From Alphaproteobacteria bacterium (lineage in GTDB: Bacteria; Pseudomonadota; Alphaproteobacteria; Geminicoccales; Geminicoccaceae), in the NCBI GenBank assembly GCA_026982705.1, contig JALSGP010000027.1, forward strand, positions 1-64,000: a DNA stretch of 64,000 nt, written 5' to 3'. Below are positions 47,083-54,281 of this stretch, one piece after another; the stretch's first letter is position 1; each line of letters opens with the position of its first letter. The position numbers and the translations under genes are program-made. A model generated the notes under the pieces. That model searched no databases. It was not told the origin of the DNA and worked only from the letters and a program-made list of their open reading frames with translations.

Positions 47083-47119
47083 CCCGGCCCGCTCCGGAGG
47101 GCCCCGTTGGAGAGCGACG

Positions 47120-47686
47120 GTGAACGGGACGGCCCGGCGTGCGGATCCCCTCACGGTGGACGAATTCCTCGCCTTCGAGGGCGAGGCGGACGTCCGCTAC
47201 GAGCTGGTGGACGGCGAGATCCGCGCCATGGCGCCCGCCGGCGACCGCCACGGTCTGATCTGCGCCAATGTCGCCATCCTCCTCCACCGTCGCCGGCCAC
47301 GTCCCGAGTGCGCACCCCGGGTCGAGGCCGGGATCCGCGTCGACGACCACGATTTCTTCGTCGCCGACGTGGTGCTGGCCTGCGGCCGTCCGCGGGCCGA
47401 GCCCGGCACGCCCGACCCGTGGCTGATCGTCGAGGTGCTCTCCCCGTCGACGCGCCTCCACGATCTCGGCCTCAAGGCCGACCGCTACCGGGAGCTTGCG
47501 GGTCTGCGCGAGCTGTGGCTCGTGGACTCCGAACGCCGCCGTGTCCAGCAGTGGCTGCGCCGCGGCCCCCGCGACTGGCACGTGCGCGACGTCATCGGCA
47601 CCGGCACCTTCGACAGCCCCGTCCTCGCCGCCACCGTCTCCCTCGACGAACTCTACGAGGGAATCGCCTTCGCGGAGGAAGGGTGA
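47120..47686 (+). CDS. Uma2-family protein, copy A
   Basis: 188 residues, PD-(D/E)XK nuclease-like fold as in the Uma2 family (function unknown). VDEFLAFEGEADVRYELVDGEIRAMAP is the N-terminal signature; the acidic strand FFVADVVLA and the following LIVEVLSPSTRLHDLGLKADRYRELAG hold the Asp, Glu and Lys of the fold; VREL... and TFDSPVLAATVSLDELYEGI end it. GTG at 47120. It is the upstream member of a tandem pair with a 1-nt TGATG junction. Confidence 0.85.
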   Translation: MNGTARRADPLTVDEFLAFEGEADVRYELVDGEIRAMAPAGDRHGLICANVAILLHRRRPRPECAPRVEAGIRVDDHDFFVADVVLACGRPRAEPGTPDPWLIVEVLSPSTRLHDLGLKADRYRELAGLRELWLVDSERRRVQQWLRRGPRDWHVRDVIGTGTFDSPVLAATVSLDELYEGIAFAEEG

Positions 47687-48240
47687 TGGCCGAGCCGCTG
47701 CCCCGCCGCATGCGGGTGGAGGAGTTCCTCGCCTTCGAGGGCGAGGCGGACGTCCGCTACGAGCTGGTGGACGGCGAGATCCGCGCCATGGCGCCCGCCG
47801 GCGACCGCCACGGCTGGCTCGCCGGCAACGTGGGATACGTGCTCCGACGGCGTCTCGCCGGCCGGGGCTGCGGCGTCGTCCACGAGGCCGGCGTCCGCAT
47901 CGACGACCACAATTTCTTCGTCGCCGATCTCGTGGTCCAGTGCACGCCCCCGAGTGGCCGCCCCTTCGTGGAGGCGCCGCGTCTGGTGGTGGAGATCCTC
48001 TCGCCCTCCACCCGCCAGCACGACCGGGACGTCAAGCTCGACGCCTATCGCGCGCTCTCCCCGGTCGAGGAGATCTGGCTCGTGGACTCCGAACGCCGCC
48101 GCGTCCAGCAGTGGATCCGCGAGGGCCCCCGCGACTGGCACGTGCGCGACGTCATCGGCACCGGCACCTTCGACAGCCCCGTCCTTGCCGCCACCGTCTC
48201 CCTCGACGAGCTCTACGAGGGAATCGCCTTCGCGGAGGAG
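47165..48240 (+). repeat. Tandem Uma2 gene repeat, 560-bp offset
   Basis: 47165-47253 is identical to 47725-47813 over 89 nt. 47515-47680 matches 48075-48240 with about nine differences in 166 nt. The equal-length middles (47254-47514 and 47814-48074) are clearly diverged. The offset is 560 bp at both ends. Confidence 0.9.
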
Positions 48241-48282
48241 ACGGAGGCGGACGGGAGCGGTGCGGCGGACGGGGATGCCTAG
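47686..48282 (+). CDS. Uma2-family protein, copy B
   Basis: 198 residues, the second member of the pair. Same N- and C-terminal blocks as copy A, but the middle differs: it reads GWLAGNVGYVLRRRLAGRGCGVVHEAGVRIDDHNFFVADLVVQC and LVVEILSPSTRQHDRDVKLDAYRALSPVEEIW where copy A has its own version. The nuclease-fold Asp, Glu and Lys remain. A 10-residue acidic tail (ETEADGSGAADGDA) is unique to this copy. Ends 4 nt into the convergent mcd gene. Confidence 0.85.
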   Translation: MAEPLPRRMRVEEFLAFEGEADVRYELVDGEIRAMAPAGDRHGWLAGNVGYVLRRRLAGRGCGVVHEAGVRIDDHNFFVADLVVQCTPPSGRPFVEAPRLVVEILSPSTRQHDRDVKLDAYRALSPVEEIWLVDSERRRVQQWIREGPRDWHVRDVIGTGTFDSPVLAATVSLDELYEGIAFAEETEADGSGAADGDA

Positions 48283-49937
48283 GTCTCCAGCAGGCGCCGG
48301 GCGATCACCTGCGCCTGGATCTCCGCCGCGCCCTCGAAGATGTTGAGGATCCGCGCATCGCACAGCACCCGGCTGATCTCGTACTCCAGCGCATAGCCGT
48401 TGCCGCCGTGGATCTGCAGGGCGTTGTCCGCGGCCGCCCAGGCCACCGCGGCGCCGAGCAGCTTGGCCAGCCCGGCCTCCAGATCGCAGCGCCGATCCCG
48501 ATCCTTCTCGCGCGCGGCGAACAGGGTGAGCTGACGGGCGATCATGAGCTCCGTCGCCATCCAGGCGAGCTTGCCGTGCACCCGCGGGAAGTCGAAGATC
48601 GGCCGGCCGAACTGGCGCCGCTCCAGGGCGTAGCGCAGGCCGAGCTCGAGCGCGTTGGCGGCGACCCCGACGGCGCGCGCGGCGGTCTGGATGCGGGCGC
48701 TCTCGAAGGTGGCCATGAGCTGCCGGAAGCCCTGTCCCTCCACGCCGCCGAGCAGGCCCTCGACGGGCACCCGGAAGCCGTCGAAGGAGAGGGTGTACTC
48801 CTTCATGCCGCGATAGCCGAGCACCGGGATCTCGGAGCCGTCCAGCCCCGCCACCGGGAAGGGATCGTCGTCGCGGCCGCGCGGCTTCTCGGCCAGCAGG
48901 ATGGAGAGCCCCCGGTACCCCGCCTCCTCCGGATCGGTGCGCACCAGCATGGTCATGAGATCGGCGCGCGCCGCGTGCGTGATCCAGGTCTTGGCGCCGT
49001 GCACCTCGTAGTGGTCGTCGCGGCGGATCGCCCGCGTGCGGACGTGCGCGAGATCCGAGCCGTGGTCCGGTTCGGTGAACACCGCGGTCGGCAGGGTCTC
49101 GCCACTGGCGATGCGCGGCAGCCAGTGGCGCTTCTGCGCCTCGGTACCGCCCAGACGCACGAGCTCGGCGGCGATCTCCGAGCGGGTGGAGAGCGAGCCC
49201 ACGCCGAGATAGCCGCGCGAGAGCTCCTCGGTGACCACGCACATGGCCTCCTTGCTCATGCCGAGGCCGCCATAGGCCTCCGGCACGGTCAGGCCGAAGA
49301 CGCCGAGCTCGGCCAGCTCGGCGATCAGCTCGAGGGGGACGAGCCGGTCCTCCAGGTGCCAGCGATGGCAGTGCGGCGCCACCTTCTCGCGCGCGAAGCG
49401 GCGGAACTGGTCCTGCACCAGGGCGAGATCGTCGTCGCTGTAGGCGGGATCGCCCCACACCTCCTCCGCCACCAGCTCGGCCAGACGGCGCACCCGCGCC
49501 GGATCGCGCCCCCGGAGCCGGAGATCGCGCACCGCCGGATCGTGCAGGAAGCGCGCCACCGACTCCGGCTCGACGCCGAGGTCCTCGGGGCGGACCATCT
49601 CCACCTGGCTCATGGGCACGCCGCCCGCGAGCCGGCCGAGATATTCGGCGAAGGCCAGGGTGGTGATCAGCCGCTCCACCTCGCCCAGCCGGTCGCGGTC
49701 GGCCAGCCGGGCACACCAGCGGTGCATCTCGTGCAGCGCCTGACGGTAGACCTCGAACCAGGCGAGCCCGTGGGCGGCGAACTGGTGGGCGGCCAGCGCC
49801 CGACCGTCCACCCGCCCCTCGGGGGCGAGACGGGCGCGCAGACGGTCGCGGGCCTCCGCCACCAGCCGGTCGACGGGCGCGAGGGCGGCGCCCGTGAGTT
49901 CCACGAGCTCGGGTGTGCGCGGATCGGCGGCGCTCAT
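48279..49937 (-). CDS. mcd: (2S)-Methylsuccinyl-CoA dehydrogenase
   Basis: FAD enzyme of the ethylmalonyl-CoA pathway oxidising methylsuccinyl-CoA to mesaconyl-CoA. 552 residues: an acyl-CoA dehydrogenase core (ELAELGVFGLTVPEAYGGLGMSKEAMCVVTEELSRG, FTEPDHGSDL, ESARIQTAARAVGVA, RRQFGRPIFDFPRVHGKLA, GGNGYALEYEISRVLCDARILNIFEGAAEIQ) preceded by about 150 extra N-terminal residues. That extension is characteristic of Mcd among acyl-CoA dehydrogenases, and ccr lies 53 bp upstream on the same strand, so the assignment is strong. No such extension occurs in generic FadE. Confidence 0.92.
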   Translation of the reverse strand: MSAADPRTPELVELTGAALAPVDRLVAEARDRLRARLAPEGRVDGRALAAHQFAAHGLAWFEVYRQALHEMHRWCARLADRDRLGEVERLITTLAFAEYLGRLAGGVPMSQVEMVRPEDLGVEPESVARFLHDPAVRDLRLRGRDPARVRRLAELVAEEVWGDPAYSDDDLALVQDQFRRFAREKVAPHCHRWHLEDRLVPLELIAELAELGVFGLTVPEAYGGLGMSKEAMCVVTEELSRGYLGVGSLSTRSEIAAELVRLGGTEAQKRHWLPRIASGETLPTAVFTEPDHGSDLAHVRTRAIRRDDHYEVHGAKTWITHAARADLMTMLVRTDPEEAGYRGLSILLAEKPRGRDDDPFPVAGLDGSEIPVLGYRGMKEYTLSFDGFRVPVEGLLGGVEGQGFRQLMATFESARIQTAARAVGVAANALELGLRYALERRQFGRPIFDFPRVHGKLAWMATELMIARQLTLFAAREKDRDRRCDLEAGLAKLLGAAVAWAAADNALQIHGGNGYALEYEISRVLCDARILNIFEGAAEIQAQVIARRLLET

Positions 49938-49989: not shown

Positions 49990-51588
49990 TCAGTCCTCCA
50001 GGGCCTCCTCCAGCGTCCGCATGCCGGGCCGCTTCGCCTGGACCAGCACCGCCATGTTGCCGGGCTTGTGCTGGTTCTTCATCATCTTCTGGTGGGCGAG
50101 CGGGATGTCGTTCCAGGCGAACACCTCGCTCATGCAGGGATCGACCTGACGGTTGAGGACGAAGCGGTTGGCGGCCGAGGCCTGCTTGAGGTGGGCGAAG
50201 TGGCTGCCCTGCACGCGCTTCTGACGCATCCACAGGTACCGGGCATCGAGGGTGAGCTTGTAGCCGGTGGTGCCGGCGCAGATCACCACCATGCCGCCGC
50301 GCTTGACCACGAACACCGAGACCGGGAAGGTGGCGGCTCCCGGATGCTCGAAGACGATGTCCACGTCGCGGCCGCCGGTGATCTCCCAGATGGCCTTGCC
50401 GAAGCGGCGCGCCTCCTTGATCCACGCCTTGTAGGCCTCGCGGTCCATGGGATCGGGCATCTCGCCCCAGCAGGAGAACTCCCGGCGGTTGATCGCTCCC
50501 TTGGCACCGAGGGAGAGCACGTAGTCGCGCTTCTCCTCGTCGGAGATGACCGCGATGGCGTTCGCCCCGCTCGCGGCGATCAGCTGGATGGCCATGGAGC
50601 CGAGGCCACCCGCCCCGCCCCACACCAGCACGTTGTCGCCGGGCTTGAGCGTGTGCGGCTGGTGGCCGAAGAGCATGCGGTAGGCGGTGGCGAGGGTGAG
50701 CACGTAGCAGCCGGACTCCTCCCAGGTGAGATGCTTCGGGCGCGGCATCAGCTGGCGCGACTGCACCCGGCAGAACTGGGCGAAGCTGCCGTCCGGCGTC
50801 TCGTAGCCCCAGATGCGCTGGGAGGGCGAGAGCATGGGATCGCCGCCGTTGCACTCCTCGTCGTCGCCGTCGTCCTGGTTGCAGTGGATCACCACCTCGT
50901 CGCCCACCTTCCAGCGCCGGACCTTGGAGCCCACCGCCCAGACGATGCCGGCGGCGTCCGAGCCGGCGATGTGATAGGGACTCTTGTGCACGTCGAGGGG
51001 CGAGATGGGCTTGCCGAGGGCGGCCCACACACCGTTGTAGTTGACGCCGGCGGCCATCACCATCACCAGCACCTCGTCCTCGCCGATGTCCCACACCGGC
51101 ACCACCTCCTGCTGCATGGCGTGCACCGGCTCGCCGTGGCGGTCCTTGCGGATCACCCAGGCGTACATGTTCCTGGGCACGTGGCCGAGCGGCGGGATCT
51201 CGCCGATCTCGTAGAGATCCTTGGTGGGCCGCACGGCGGCCGGGGCGCGTTCGAGACGGAGGGCGCGGGCGGGTTCGGCGTTCATGGCGGTGCTCTCTCC
51301 CCCTTGACTGCGGTCGCTGCCGGCACGGTCGACGGAGACGGTGCCCGCCCGGGAGGCCGTTCCGCCCGCACCATTGTCGCGGACGAGGGCGTCGGGGAAG
51401 AAGTCCTCCGGGCGCAGGTCGATGCCCTCGCGGCGGGCGATGGCGAGCAGCTCCTGCTGGCGCCGGGCGGGGATGGCGCCGCGGCGGATCCAGCCGGAGA
51501 CGGCGGTCTGCCAGATGCCCAGCAGCTCGGCCACGCGCTGTTGCGAGCCGAATTTGCGGATGATGCGCTCCACCTGTTCCCTGCTCAT
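49990..51588 (-). CDS. ccr: Crotonyl-CoA carboxylase/reductase with an N-terminal helix-turn-helix extension
   Basis: Reductive carboxylation of crotonyl-CoA to ethylmalonyl-CoA. From the ATG at 51588 the frame codes 532 residues without a stop. Residues about 1-68 are a Cro-like HTH (QRVAELLGIWQTAVSGWIRRG). Residues 69-101 are a Gly/Ser/Thr-rich linker. From Met102 (51285) a normal 431-residue Ccr follows: KDLYEIGEIPPLGHVPRNMYAW, VIHCNQDDGDDEECNGGDPM, VLVWGGAGGLGSMAIQL (NADPH loop), VFEHPG and LTLDARYLWMRQKRVQGSHFAHLKQA. Ccr is usually about 430 residues and starts here. Either both forms are made or the reading frame was fused by an error. Divergent from ecm. Confidence 0.9.
   Translation of the reverse strand: MSREQVERIIRKFGSQQRVAELLGIWQTAVSGWIRRGAIPARRQQELLAIARREGIDLRPEDFFPDALVRDNGAGGTASRAGTVSVDRAGSDRSQGGESTAMNAEPARALRLERAPAAVRPTKDLYEIGEIPPLGHVPRNMYAWVIRKDRHGEPVHAMQQEVVPVWDIGEDEVLVMVMAAGVNYNGVWAALGKPISPLDVHKSPYHIAGSDAAGIVWAVGSKVRRWKVGDEVVIHCNQDDGDDEECNGGDPMLSPSQRIWGYETPDGSFAQFCRVQSRQLMPRPKHLTWEESGCYVLTLATAYRMLFGHQPHTLKPGDNVLVWGGAGGLGSMAIQLIAASGANAIAVISDEEKRDYVLSLGAKGAINRREFSCWGEMPDPMDREAYKAWIKEARRFGKAIWEITGGRDVDIVFEHPGAATFPVSVFVVKRGGMVVICAGTTGYKLTLDARYLWMRQKRVQGSHFAHLKQASAANRFVLNRQVDPCMSEVFAWNDIPLAHQKMMKNQHKPGNMAVLVQAKRPGMRTLEEALED
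51283..51303 (-). promoter_or_regulatory. Internal translation start of ccr
   Basis: ATG at 51285 (Met102 of the long frame) is preceded, 9-15 nt upstream on the minus strand, by GGGGGAGAG. The protein from here, 431 residues with N-terminus MNAEPARALRLERAP, has the usual Ccr length. This start decides whether the HTH domain is part of the enzyme. Confidence 0.6.
51286..51588 (-). other. HTH domain and linker coded in frame with ccr
   Basis: MSREQVERIIRKFGSQQRVAELL begins a YdaS/Cro-type helix-turn-helix; the second helix WQTAVSGWIRRG and RRQQELLAIARREGIDLRPEDFF follow. The block ends in a charged, Gly-rich linker. No stop separates it from ccr, so any ribosome starting at 51588 makes the fusion. 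Confidence 0.8.
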
Positions 51589-51649
51589 CGGACGGCTCCC
51601 GTGCTGGTGGCGGGCCGGCGCCCCCGCCCTGCACCATCACGCCAGGTGT

Positions 51650-51697
51650 TGTCAACGAAAAAATGTGTTTGACGCACCGCCGAAGGAGTGTTAGTGC
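51650..51697. promoter_or_regulatory. Divergent promoter region of ecm and HTH-ccr
   Basis: GTCAA (51651-51655) and TTGAC (51669-51673) are inverted repeats 13 nt apart. Each is part of a -35: TTGACA on the minus strand (51655-51650) towards ccr and TTGACG on the plus strand (51669-51674) towards ecm, where TAGTGC follows after 17 nt (51692-51697). The minus-side -10 is weak. The 13-nt gap is A-rich. Confidence 0.5.
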
Positions 51698-51729
51698 GGC
51701 GCGGGAGGACCCTCACGGAAGGTGTCGAG

Positions 51730-53721
51730 ATGTCCGGCGACGCTCCCCGGCGCGACCGCCCCTGGCTGTTCCGCACCTACGCCGGTCACAGTTCGGCGGA
51801 GACCAGCAACGAACTGTTCCGGCGCAACCTCGCGCGCGGCCAGACCGGCCTGTCCGTGGCCTTCGACCTGCCGACCCAGACCGGCTACGACAGCGATCAC
51901 CCCCTCGCGCGCGGCGAGGTGGGCAAGGTGGGGGTCCCCGTCTGCCACATCGACGACATGCGCCGCCTGTTCGACGGCATCCCCCTGGCGCGCACCAACA
52001 CCTCCATGACCATCAACGCCACCGCGCCCTGGCTGCTGGCCCTCTACGTGGCGGTGGCGGAGGAACAGGGGGCGGACCGGCGGACGCTGCAGGGCACCGT
52101 CCAGAACGACATCGTCAAGGAATACCTCTCGCGGGGCACGTACATCTTCCCGCCGCGACCGTCGCTGCGCCTGACCCGCGACGTCATCACCTTCTGTGCC
52201 CGTGAGATGCCCCGGTGGAATCCCGTCAACGTCTGCAGCTACCATCTCCAGGAGGCGGGGGCCACGCCGGTGCAGGAGCTGGCCTTCGCCCTCGCCAACG
52301 CCCTCTGCATCCTGGACGAGGTCCGCGGGAGCGGCGAGATCCCGGAAGAGGATTTCCCGCGCGTCTTCGGCCGGATCAGCTTCTTCGTCAACGCCGGCAT
52401 CCGCTTCGTCACCGAACTCTGCAAGATGCGGGCGTTCGTCGAGCTGTGGGACGAGATCGGACGCGAGCGCTACGGCGTCGAGGACCCGAAGCTGCGCCGC
52501 TTCCGCTATGGGGTGCAGGTCAATTCGCTGGGGCTCACCGAGCAGCAGCCCGAGAACAACGTCTATCGCATCCTCCTCGAGATGCTCGGCGTGACGCTCT
52601 CGAAGCGTGCCCGCGCCCGCGCCGTCCAGCTGCCGGCCTGGAACGAGGCCCTCGGCCTGCCGCGCCCGTGGGACCAGCAGTGGTCGCTGCGCGCCCAGCA
52701 GATCCTCGCCTTCGAGACCGACCTCCTGGAGTACGACGACATCTTCGACGGCTCGCACGTGATCGAGGCGAAGGTGCGCGAACTGGTCGAGGCGGCGCGC
52801 GAGGAGCTGGCGCGCATCGAGGCCATGGGCGGGGCGCTCGCGGCGGTCGAGAACGGCTACATGAAGTCCCGGCTGGTGGAGTCCAACGCGAAACGTGTTG
52901 GCGACATCGCGGCCGGTCGGATCCCGGTGGTGGGGATCAACTGCTACACGGAAAGTGAACCCTCGCCGCTGCTCACCGGCGACGGGCCGGCCTTCCTCGC
53001 CGTCGACGAGACCGCCGAGGCCCGGCAGATCGAGCGGTTGCAGGCCTTCCGTGCGGCACGCGACGCGCGCGCGGTGGCCCGTGCGCTGGAAGAGCTGCGG
53101 CAGGCGGCGGTGGAGGGGCGCAACATCGTGCCACCCTCCATCGCCTGTGCGCGGGCCGGCGTGACCACCGGCGAGTGGGCCGGCGTGCTGCGCGAGGTGT
53201 TCGGCGAGTATCGGGCGCCCACCGGCCTCGGCGAGGTCCGGACGGCACTGCCGGACGAGGTGTTCGAGCCGGTGCGGCGCAAGGTGGAGGAGGCCTCGCG
53301 CATCCTCCGCCGGCGCCTCAAGATCCTGGTGGGCAAGCCCGGCCTCGACGGGCACTCCAATGGTGCCGAACAGATCGCCGTGGCCGCGCGCGACAGCGGC
53401 ATGGAGGTGGTCTACGAGGGCATCCGTCTCTCGCCCGCCCGCATCGCCAACACCGCCCTCGAGGAGGGGGTGCACCTCGTCGGCCTCTCCATCCTCTCCG
53501 GCTCGCATCTGCCGCTGGTGCGGGAGGTGCTGGAGCGCATGCGCGCCCTCGGCATCGGCGACGTGCCGGTGGTGGTGGGCGGCATCGTCCCGGAGGCGGA
53601 CGCCGAGCGCCTGCGCGCCATGGGCGTGGCGGCGGTCTACACGCCCAAGGACTACCGGATCCACGAGATCATGGCGGAGCTGGTGGACATCGTGCTCGCC
53701 GCCCACCATCGCGCCGCCTGA
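51730..53721 (+). CDS. ecm: Ethylmalonyl-CoA mutase
   Basis: B12-dependent isomerisation of ethylmalonyl-CoA to methylsuccinyl-CoA. 663 residues. Substrate barrel (1-520): PWLFRTYAGHSSAETSNELFRRNLARGQTGLSVAFDLPTQTGYDSDHP, TSMTINATAPWLLALYVAVAEEQG, GTVQNDIVKEYLSRGTYIFPP (parts). Cobalamin domain (about 530-663): KILVGKPGLDGHSNGAEQIA with the DxHxxG signature near 539-544, GIRLSPARIANTALEEGV, GLSILSGSHLPLV, VVVGGIVPEAD. The single chain combining both and the sequence style fit Ecm rather than MutA/MutB methylmalonyl-CoA mutases. Position opposite ccr and mcd agrees. Confidence 0.93.
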   Translation: MSGDAPRRDRPWLFRTYAGHSSAETSNELFRRNLARGQTGLSVAFDLPTQTGYDSDHPLARGEVGKVGVPVCHIDDMRRLFDGIPLARTNTSMTINATAPWLLALYVAVAEEQGADRRTLQGTVQNDIVKEYLSRGTYIFPPRPSLRLTRDVITFCAREMPRWNPVNVCSYHLQEAGATPVQELAFALANALCILDEVRGSGEIPEEDFPRVFGRISFFVNAGIRFVTELCKMRAFVELWDEIGRERYGVEDPKLRRFRYGVQVNSLGLTEQQPENNVYRILLEMLGVTLSKRARARAVQLPAWNEALGLPRPWDQQWSLRAQQILAFETDLLEYDDIFDGSHVIEAKVRELVEAAREELARIEAMGGALAAVENGYMKSRLVESNAKRVGDIAAGRIPVVGINCYTESEPSPLLTGDGPAFLAVDETAEARQIERLQAFRAARDARAVARALEELRQAAVEGRNIVPPSIACARAGVTTGEWAGVLREVFGEYRAPTGLGEVRTALPDEVFEPVRRKVEEASRILRRRLKILVGKPGLDGHSNGAEQIAVAARDSGMEVVYEGIRLSPARIANTALEEGVHLVGLSILSGSHLPLVREVLERMRALGIGDVPVVVGGIVPEADAERLRAMGVAAVYTPKDYRIHEIMAELVDIVLAAHHRAA

Positions 53722-53783
53722 CACCGCCGCCGCGTGCCACCCCCGCCGCCGTGCGCTATGTTGGCCGGGCGGAGGTGTGTCTC

Positions 53784-54281
53784 ATGACGGACGTCTCGGA
53801 CCTCGAACGCCTCTACGAGGAGGACTTCTATGCCTGGACGCGGGCCCAGGCGCGGGCCCTCCGCCAGCTCGCCCGCACCCGTCCGAACGTGCCGGTGGAC
53901 TGGAAGCATCTGGTCGAGGAGGTGGAGGACTTGGGCCGCAGCGAGCTGCACGCCGTGCGCAGCCATCTCGTCGTCGTACTCGAACATCTCCTCAAGCTGC
54001 AGGCCTCGACGGCGGATGCGCCACGCCGCGGCTGGATGCTGACGGTGCAGCGCGCTCGGAGCGAGCTGGAGGAGCGATTGACGCCGAGCCTGCGACGTCA
54101 TCTGCGGGCGGCCCTCCCCCGCCTCTACACGAGGGCGCGACGCGATGCCCGCTTCGCGCTCGAGCTCCACGGCGAACACGAGGCGGCCGCCCACCTTCCC
54201 GAACGCTGCCCCTGGACCCTCGCCCAGCTCCTCGATCCCGACTTCTGGCCGGAGCCCCGCCATGCCCACGGTGACGGATGA
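53784..54281 (+). CDS. DUF29-family protein, array copy 1
   Basis: 165 residues, first of four DUF29 paralogues. Core EEDFYAWTRAQARALRQ, PNVPVDWKHLVEEVEDLGRSE and LVVVLEHLLKLQAS, then a diverged middle (ADAPRRGWMLTVQRARSELEERLTPSLRRHLRAALPRLYTRARRD) and the conserved tail PERCPWTLAQLLDPDFWPEP. DUF29 is a small-protein family expanded in cyanobacteria and some proteobacteria, without known function; its helical profile and the family habit of occurring near toxin-antitoxin loci are only suggestive. ATG after GGAGG. No signal or membrane segment. Ends 20 nt inside copy 2. Confidence 0.82.
   Translation: MTDVSDLERLYEEDFYAWTRAQARALRQLARTRPNVPVDWKHLVEEVEDLGRSELHAVRSHLVVVLEHLLKLQASTADAPRRGWMLTVQRARSELEERLTPSLRRHLRAALPRLYTRARRDARFALELHGEHEAAAHLPERCPWTLAQLLDPDFWPEPRHAHGDG

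Follow-up and report, generated by a model that had tools for sequence, protein, structure and literature searches.

The window, by which we mean the whole 64-kb stretch of DNA analysed here, carries a gene on the reverse strand (49990..51588, -) whose 532-aa product joins an N-terminal helix-turn-helix (HTH) DNA-binding head, a variable linker and a complete crotonyl-CoA carboxylase/reductase (Ccr). Read from 51588 to 49990, its 532 codons contain zero stops on translation. Divergent to this HTH-ccr gene lies an ethylmalonyl-CoA mutase (51730..53721, +), named ecm by context, with MM_CoA_mutase and B12-binding domains; its start at 51730 is likely and was placed from an SD-like sequence. Downstream of ccr is an acyl-CoA dehydrogenase (48279..49937, -), named mcd by context, with Acyl-CoA_dh domains. 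As inferred from sequence context, the ecm/HTH-ccr/mcd neighbourhood has the appearance of a gene cluster for the ethylmalonyl-CoA pathway. These pathway genes are flanked by frames that encode DUF29 and Uma2 domains, at 53175-54281 (+) and 47107-48282 (+).

Both ends of the fusion are matched by known families. The head (residues 6-58; 51415..51573, -) is a carph-isopro or P22-Cro-like HTH: it reaches 60.6 bits with NCBIfam NF046037 'carph-isopro', whose curated cut-off is 38, and its residues 7-46 match Pfam P22_Cro (PF14549) with an E of 2.7e-7, barely exceeding the cut-off. The fit to the YdaS toxin family (PF15943, gathering cut-off 30) is poorer, with 26.5 bits for the whole protein and 30.0 for the isolated head, and the solved structures closest to the HTH by sequence are Cro proteins. 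The catalytic core (49993..51222, -) is 75% identical to the solved Ccr 4gi2, and residues 136-526 score 633 bits with TIGR01751 (cut-off 379), covering the full catalytic domain. This score shows the core to be a member of the crotonyl-CoA carboxylase/reductase family; its reductive carboxylation activity is inferred. Because the alignment was shallow, an AF2 model of the whole fusion was confident only in the HTH (pLDDT about 78-92 for residues 1-60) and part of the Ccr core, and a fold search with this model matched Ccr structures with poor superposition.

The linker (residues 65-122, 58 aa; 51223..51396, -) takes 13 different lengths, from 46 to 65 aa, among the 23 fused loci described below, and is always in-frame. 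It contains an internal ATG at codon 102 (51283..51285, -) with the SD-like GGGGGAGAG upstream, from which a short form might be made. A Met with an SD-like sequence is found in the linker of the window and of five relatives, that is, in six loci from two genera, and four others (L014, which is of the same genus as the window, L019, L024 and L031) have a linker without any Met. A short Ccr may exist in the window's genus and in one related genus, and is not general. It remains conceivable in the window, for which there are no peptide or transcript data, and is probably not what selection preserves in fused Ccrs.

A sequence-only reading of the locus had described a stop-free frame joining a Cro/YdaS-like head through a Gly/Ser linker to a full-length Ccr. 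The frame held, by translation and by the family matches, as did the Cro half of the head's assignment, for which P22_Cro and carph-isopro are both above their cut-offs; for YdaS the whole protein falls below the cut-off and the isolated head is level with it. The Gly/Ser linker held only in part, as the linker is rich in Ala, Gly, Pro, Ser and Thr and is very variable. An internal start at 51285 had been noted too, and it is indeed codon 102 behind the SD-like sequence; this start is not conserved across the family, and the shorter form proposed from it is possible in the two genera only.

We used the HTH region alone as a query against 60 relatives and found it adjoining Ccr in 23 Geminicoccaceae genomes, the window's own included; Arboricoccus pini, Bacterium HR39, HR40 and KatS3mg117 are among the genomes of this family that were compared. 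HTH and Ccr are in-frame, without stop or frameshift, in 23/23 loci showing the Ccr N-terminus, and the HTH of the other 22 loci is 71-99% identical to that of the window. When Ccr itself was searched in 31 genomes of the family, every Ccr with its N-terminus present was fused; the remaining matches were fragments whose start falls within the gene or at, or close to, the end of a contig. The HTH codons have a pN/pS of 0.00-0.48 (median 0.24), showing that the head is under purifying selection, and the HTH core and its recognition region GIWQTAVSGW are almost unchanged among fused Ccrs. A chance open frame in GC-rich DNA is ruled out by the HTH match, the selection and the conservation. The linker is no artefact of sequencing or assembly, since all 23 genomes are in-frame.

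No HTH was found upstream of the 24 nearest Ccrs outside Geminicoccaceae, which rules out the fusion as a general Ccr trait. In the tree, the fused Ccrs form one clade, split from these 24 solo Ccrs with 100/100 support, which is consistent with a single origin. Many linkers keep a 'VIPL'-like stretch resembling the N-termini of solo Ccrs (e.g., 'MSEAAEVIPL' in L119), suggesting that two neighbouring genes were joined by read-through long ago. Such an origin is plausible, although inferred. The sequence-only reading had offered a former regulator gene with a lost stop as one explanation; this failed as a recent accident or artefact and remains plausible as an ancient origin. Two of its proposed checks, for an indel or frameshift in the linker and for an N-terminal HTH in Ccr homologues, gave none of the former in 23 loci and, for the latter, an HTH in 23/23 Geminicoccaceae and not upstream of the 24 nearest Ccrs outside.

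The 141-bp intergenic region between ecm and ccr (51589..51729) holds back-to-back promoters, whose elements we assigned by visual inspection of conserved sequence. For ccr, the presumed -35 (TTGACA) lies at 51650..51655 (-), and most relatives have TTGAC at the same position; the presumed ecm promoter, TTTGAC-N17-TTAGTG, lies at 51668..51696 (+), with its -10 at 51691-51696, and appears in most relatives as GTCAA on the ccr strand. Three AACAC sites on the reverse strand are placed among these elements. Site 1 (CAACACC, 51646..51650, -) adjoins the ccr -35, site 2 (AAACACA, 51665..51669, -) lies between the two -35 boxes, and site 3 (TAACACT, 51688..51692, -) overlaps the presumed ecm -10. 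They form the only cluster of three copies within 47 bp in the 64 kb, and at least three copies in 150 bp had a P of 0.0026 by shuffling. The motif is present at 23/23 fused loci, with 67 copies in the 150 bp upstream of the fused gene against 10 expected; with one locus per genus (12 genera) there were 36 against 6.1 expected, and 2000 shuffles never gave more than 14. Solo-Ccr controls had only 8 in total, in the 200 bp upstream of each of 24 loci. Several relatives have AACAC sites between the two -35 boxes and also upstream of them.

The evidence for a palindromic operator at ccr is weaker. Six fused-Ccr relatives have a 17-bp dyad, GTGTTG-N5-CAACAC, at 11-12 of 12 matches, positioned at the ccr -35 in five and further upstream in L029; a related dyad of 16 bp is found in L025. 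Only a minority of fused loci have the exact 6-5-6 geometry. The window's best such dyad matches at just 9 of 12 positions, a score within the range expected by chance; this is the main weakness of the operator case. An unbiased palindrome scan of fused-Ccr promoters peaked at spacer 13, corresponding to the back-to-back pair of -35 boxes and not to the 6-5-6 dyad. Because the AACAC signal lies partly in or beside conserved promoter boxes, some of its conservation may reflect the promoter and not an operator. A regulon scan with the dyad GTGTT-N4-7-AACAC gave a few matches per genome, mostly away from ccr, and was uninformative; paired direct YAACACY sites gave four matches in the own genome, zero of them at the HTH-ccr locus, so these scans revealed no regulon other than ecm/ccr. 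The AACAC enrichment is specific to fused loci, but the window's dyad is not significant and there are no binding data; we regard the sites as a putative operator.

The carph-isopro HTH is also found in-frame at the N-terminus of other enzymes, namely CarA, LeuA, a class-V aminotransferase and one YjeF. In family f27 (alphaproteobacterial, taxonomy inferred), it scored above cut-off in 56/60 genomes, and nearly all loci read out were HTH-CarA (L194-L223, L182-L186). HTH-LeuA (2-isopropylmalate synthase) was found at seven loci of gammaproteobacterial type, again with inferred taxonomy (L177, L179, L224-L228). Five loci (L230-L234) carry a Cro-like head on a class-V aminotransferase of the alanine-glyoxylate type, an enzyme named from its sequence and not by family search. 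The NCBIfam name 'carph-isopro' probably stands for carbamoyl-phosphate synthase plus isopropylmalate synthase, although we infer this. The YjeF (NAD(P)H-hydrate epimerase) with an in-frame head is at L065 (G143:C17). In many other alphaproteobacteria (L066-L090), the same HTH forms the N-terminal part of a protein that has a coiled coil and probably spans the membrane, mitofilin-like by eye; these might be membrane-anchored DNA-binding proteins.

The CarA, LeuA and aminotransferase groups each have a different 17-bp palindrome of 6-5-6 geometry in their own promoter. HTH-CarA promoters contain one or two palindromes each, with TGGGAA-N5-TTCCCA perfect in 24/33; HTH-LeuA promoters have TTAGAC-N5-GTCTAA at 11-12 of 12 in 5/7, and HTH-aminotransferase promoters GTCAAA-N5-TTTGAC at 11-12 of 12 in 5/5. 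Because these consensus words were picked after seeing the enrichment, the per-group scores are descriptive only. An unbiased spacer scan of the CarA promoters found spacer 5 in 27/33, against 1.8 expected. Cleaner than the per-group scores is the genome-wide test, in which 35/38 perfect CarA-type sites in 170 Mb lay no more than 200 bp from the HTH of the fusion gene. This result raises the likelihood that Ccr, too, is regulated through its own fused head.

HTH-Ccr has the architecture of a trigger enzyme, with an enzyme and a DNA-binding domain in one protein; its cognate operator is putative, and DNA binding and regulation that depend on substrate are predicted. The fusion itself, its family-wide conservation and selection, and the reiterated sites that co-occur with it are shown by the sequences. 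A conserved Cro-like head together with repeated matching sites in the own promoter makes it likely that HTH-Ccr controls its own gene, as a PutA-like fused trigger enzyme; that the head binds DNA, whether it represses and which ligand it responds to are all inferences, made without binding or expression data. In the mechanism that we propose, full-length HTH-Ccr would be the main product, and its head would bind the AACAC sites (about YAACACYT) in the ecm/ccr spacer as a dimer, perhaps with the Ccr oligomer bridging sites. As these sites lie on or beside the two divergent promoters, transcription of ccr(-mcd), and probably of ecm, would depend on how much Ccr is present or on its state. We predict repression of ccr/ecm, inferred from the overlap of the sites with the presumed -35 and -10. 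A substrate or cofactor (crotonyl-CoA, NADPH) in the Ccr core may then alter DNA binding, probably relieving repression, an inference without direct evidence; the pathway would in this way be on when acetyl units need assimilation. The idea that the enzyme reports the state of its own pathway through DNA binding had been put forward in the sequence-only reading, and is supported by the conservation of the fusion, the selection on the HTH and the repeated AACAC sites, which are not found upstream of solo Ccr; binding itself remains an inference.

Other explanations can be weighed against this. The head may bind DNA without repressing, and instead activate a gene such as ecm or anchor the enzyme. 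The AACAC sites between and upstream of the -35 boxes in several relatives would suit this, but the overlap of sites with -35 and -10 elements fits a repressor, and PutA is one; we find this alternative unlikely. It is likewise doubtful that the head has lost specific DNA binding and serves oligomerisation, protein contacts or stability, with the AACAC sites belonging to another regulator. In favour of this, transmembrane coiled-coil proteins also carry the domain N-terminally, and it is harder to see what it would do with DNA there; against it, the HTH core and recognition region are almost invariant, the AACAC sites accompany the fusion and not solo Ccr, and every enzyme group has its own palindrome.

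A third possibility concerns the products: Ccr might be made solely from the internal start, the upstream codons being a regulatory leader or encoding a small HTH protein. The SD-like sequence before codon 102, with a similar arrangement in the six loci of two genera, speaks for it. We consider it very unlikely, as there are zero stops between HTH and Ccr in 23 loci and the linker Met is missing in four relatives. That the fusion is an artefact of assembly or sequencing, or that a single genome has recently lost a stop, is all but excluded by the 23 in-frame genomes, and nothing was found in favour of either.

Self-regulation by HTH-Ccr remains our preferred reading, and it can be extended. 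In the bolder form, the carph-isopro HTH would be the hallmark of metabolic enzymes that regulate themselves, a general class in Pseudomonadota that has apparently not been described: a single kind of Cro-like head would sit on Ccr, CarA, LeuA, class-V aminotransferase and YjeF, at least the first four with an operator in their own promoter, and each enzyme would be a single-target sensor and regulator. HTH-Ccr would be the ethylmalonyl-CoA-pathway member of this class. We lean towards this reading by a narrow margin, binding being inferred throughout. Our search of the open-access literature found no HTH-Ccr, HTH-CarA or HTH-LeuA fusion, no mention of 'carph-isopro' and no head-operator link across several enzymes. 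Trigger enzymes and the carph-isopro HTH domain are already known; HTH-Ccr and the head-operator link across enzymes appear to be new, as far as this search goes. If true, the CO2-fixing enzyme of the ethylmalonyl-CoA pathway doubles as its own transcription regulator, and HTH-Ccr gives a direct test of how cells can sense the occupancy of an enzyme and not the pool of a metabolite. That CarA, LeuA and the aminotransferase share this head, each with its own palindrome, would point to a modular natural route from enzyme to self-regulator, with sharp predictions for the operator sequence and a single target.

HTH-Ccr can be compared with several known systems. Solo Ccrs such as PDB 4gi2 share its catalytic domain and family model, but lack the HTH, the linker and, at the 24 loci compared, the upstream AACAC cluster. 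P22 Cro and the Xylella-type Cro (PDB 1rzs, 3bd1), the closest solved sequence relatives of the head, are stand-alone phage repressors with no enzyme attached. RamB and PccR, of the ScfR family, regulate alphaproteobacterial genes for related pathways, the assimilation of acetate and propionate, and the signals for RamB are CoA esters of the ethylmalonyl-CoA pathway (PMC10370305); unlike HTH-Ccr, these are separate regulators without a Ccr domain. The trigger enzymes PutA, BirA, NadR and PepA (PMC8249747) are, like HTH-Ccr, enzymes with an added DNA-binding domain, and the only DNA that PutA binds is the spacer separating its own gene from the divergent putP (PMC8249747), which resembles the ecm/ccr spacer. 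PutA-type trigger enzymes have another DNA-binding fold and another enzyme, and their regulation is proven, whereas that of HTH-Ccr is inferred. HTH-CarA and HTH-LeuA (NF046037) differ from HTH-Ccr in the enzyme and in the sequence of the putative operator, yet have the same HTH in the same N-terminal position, with a metabolic enzyme behind it and sites in their own promoters.
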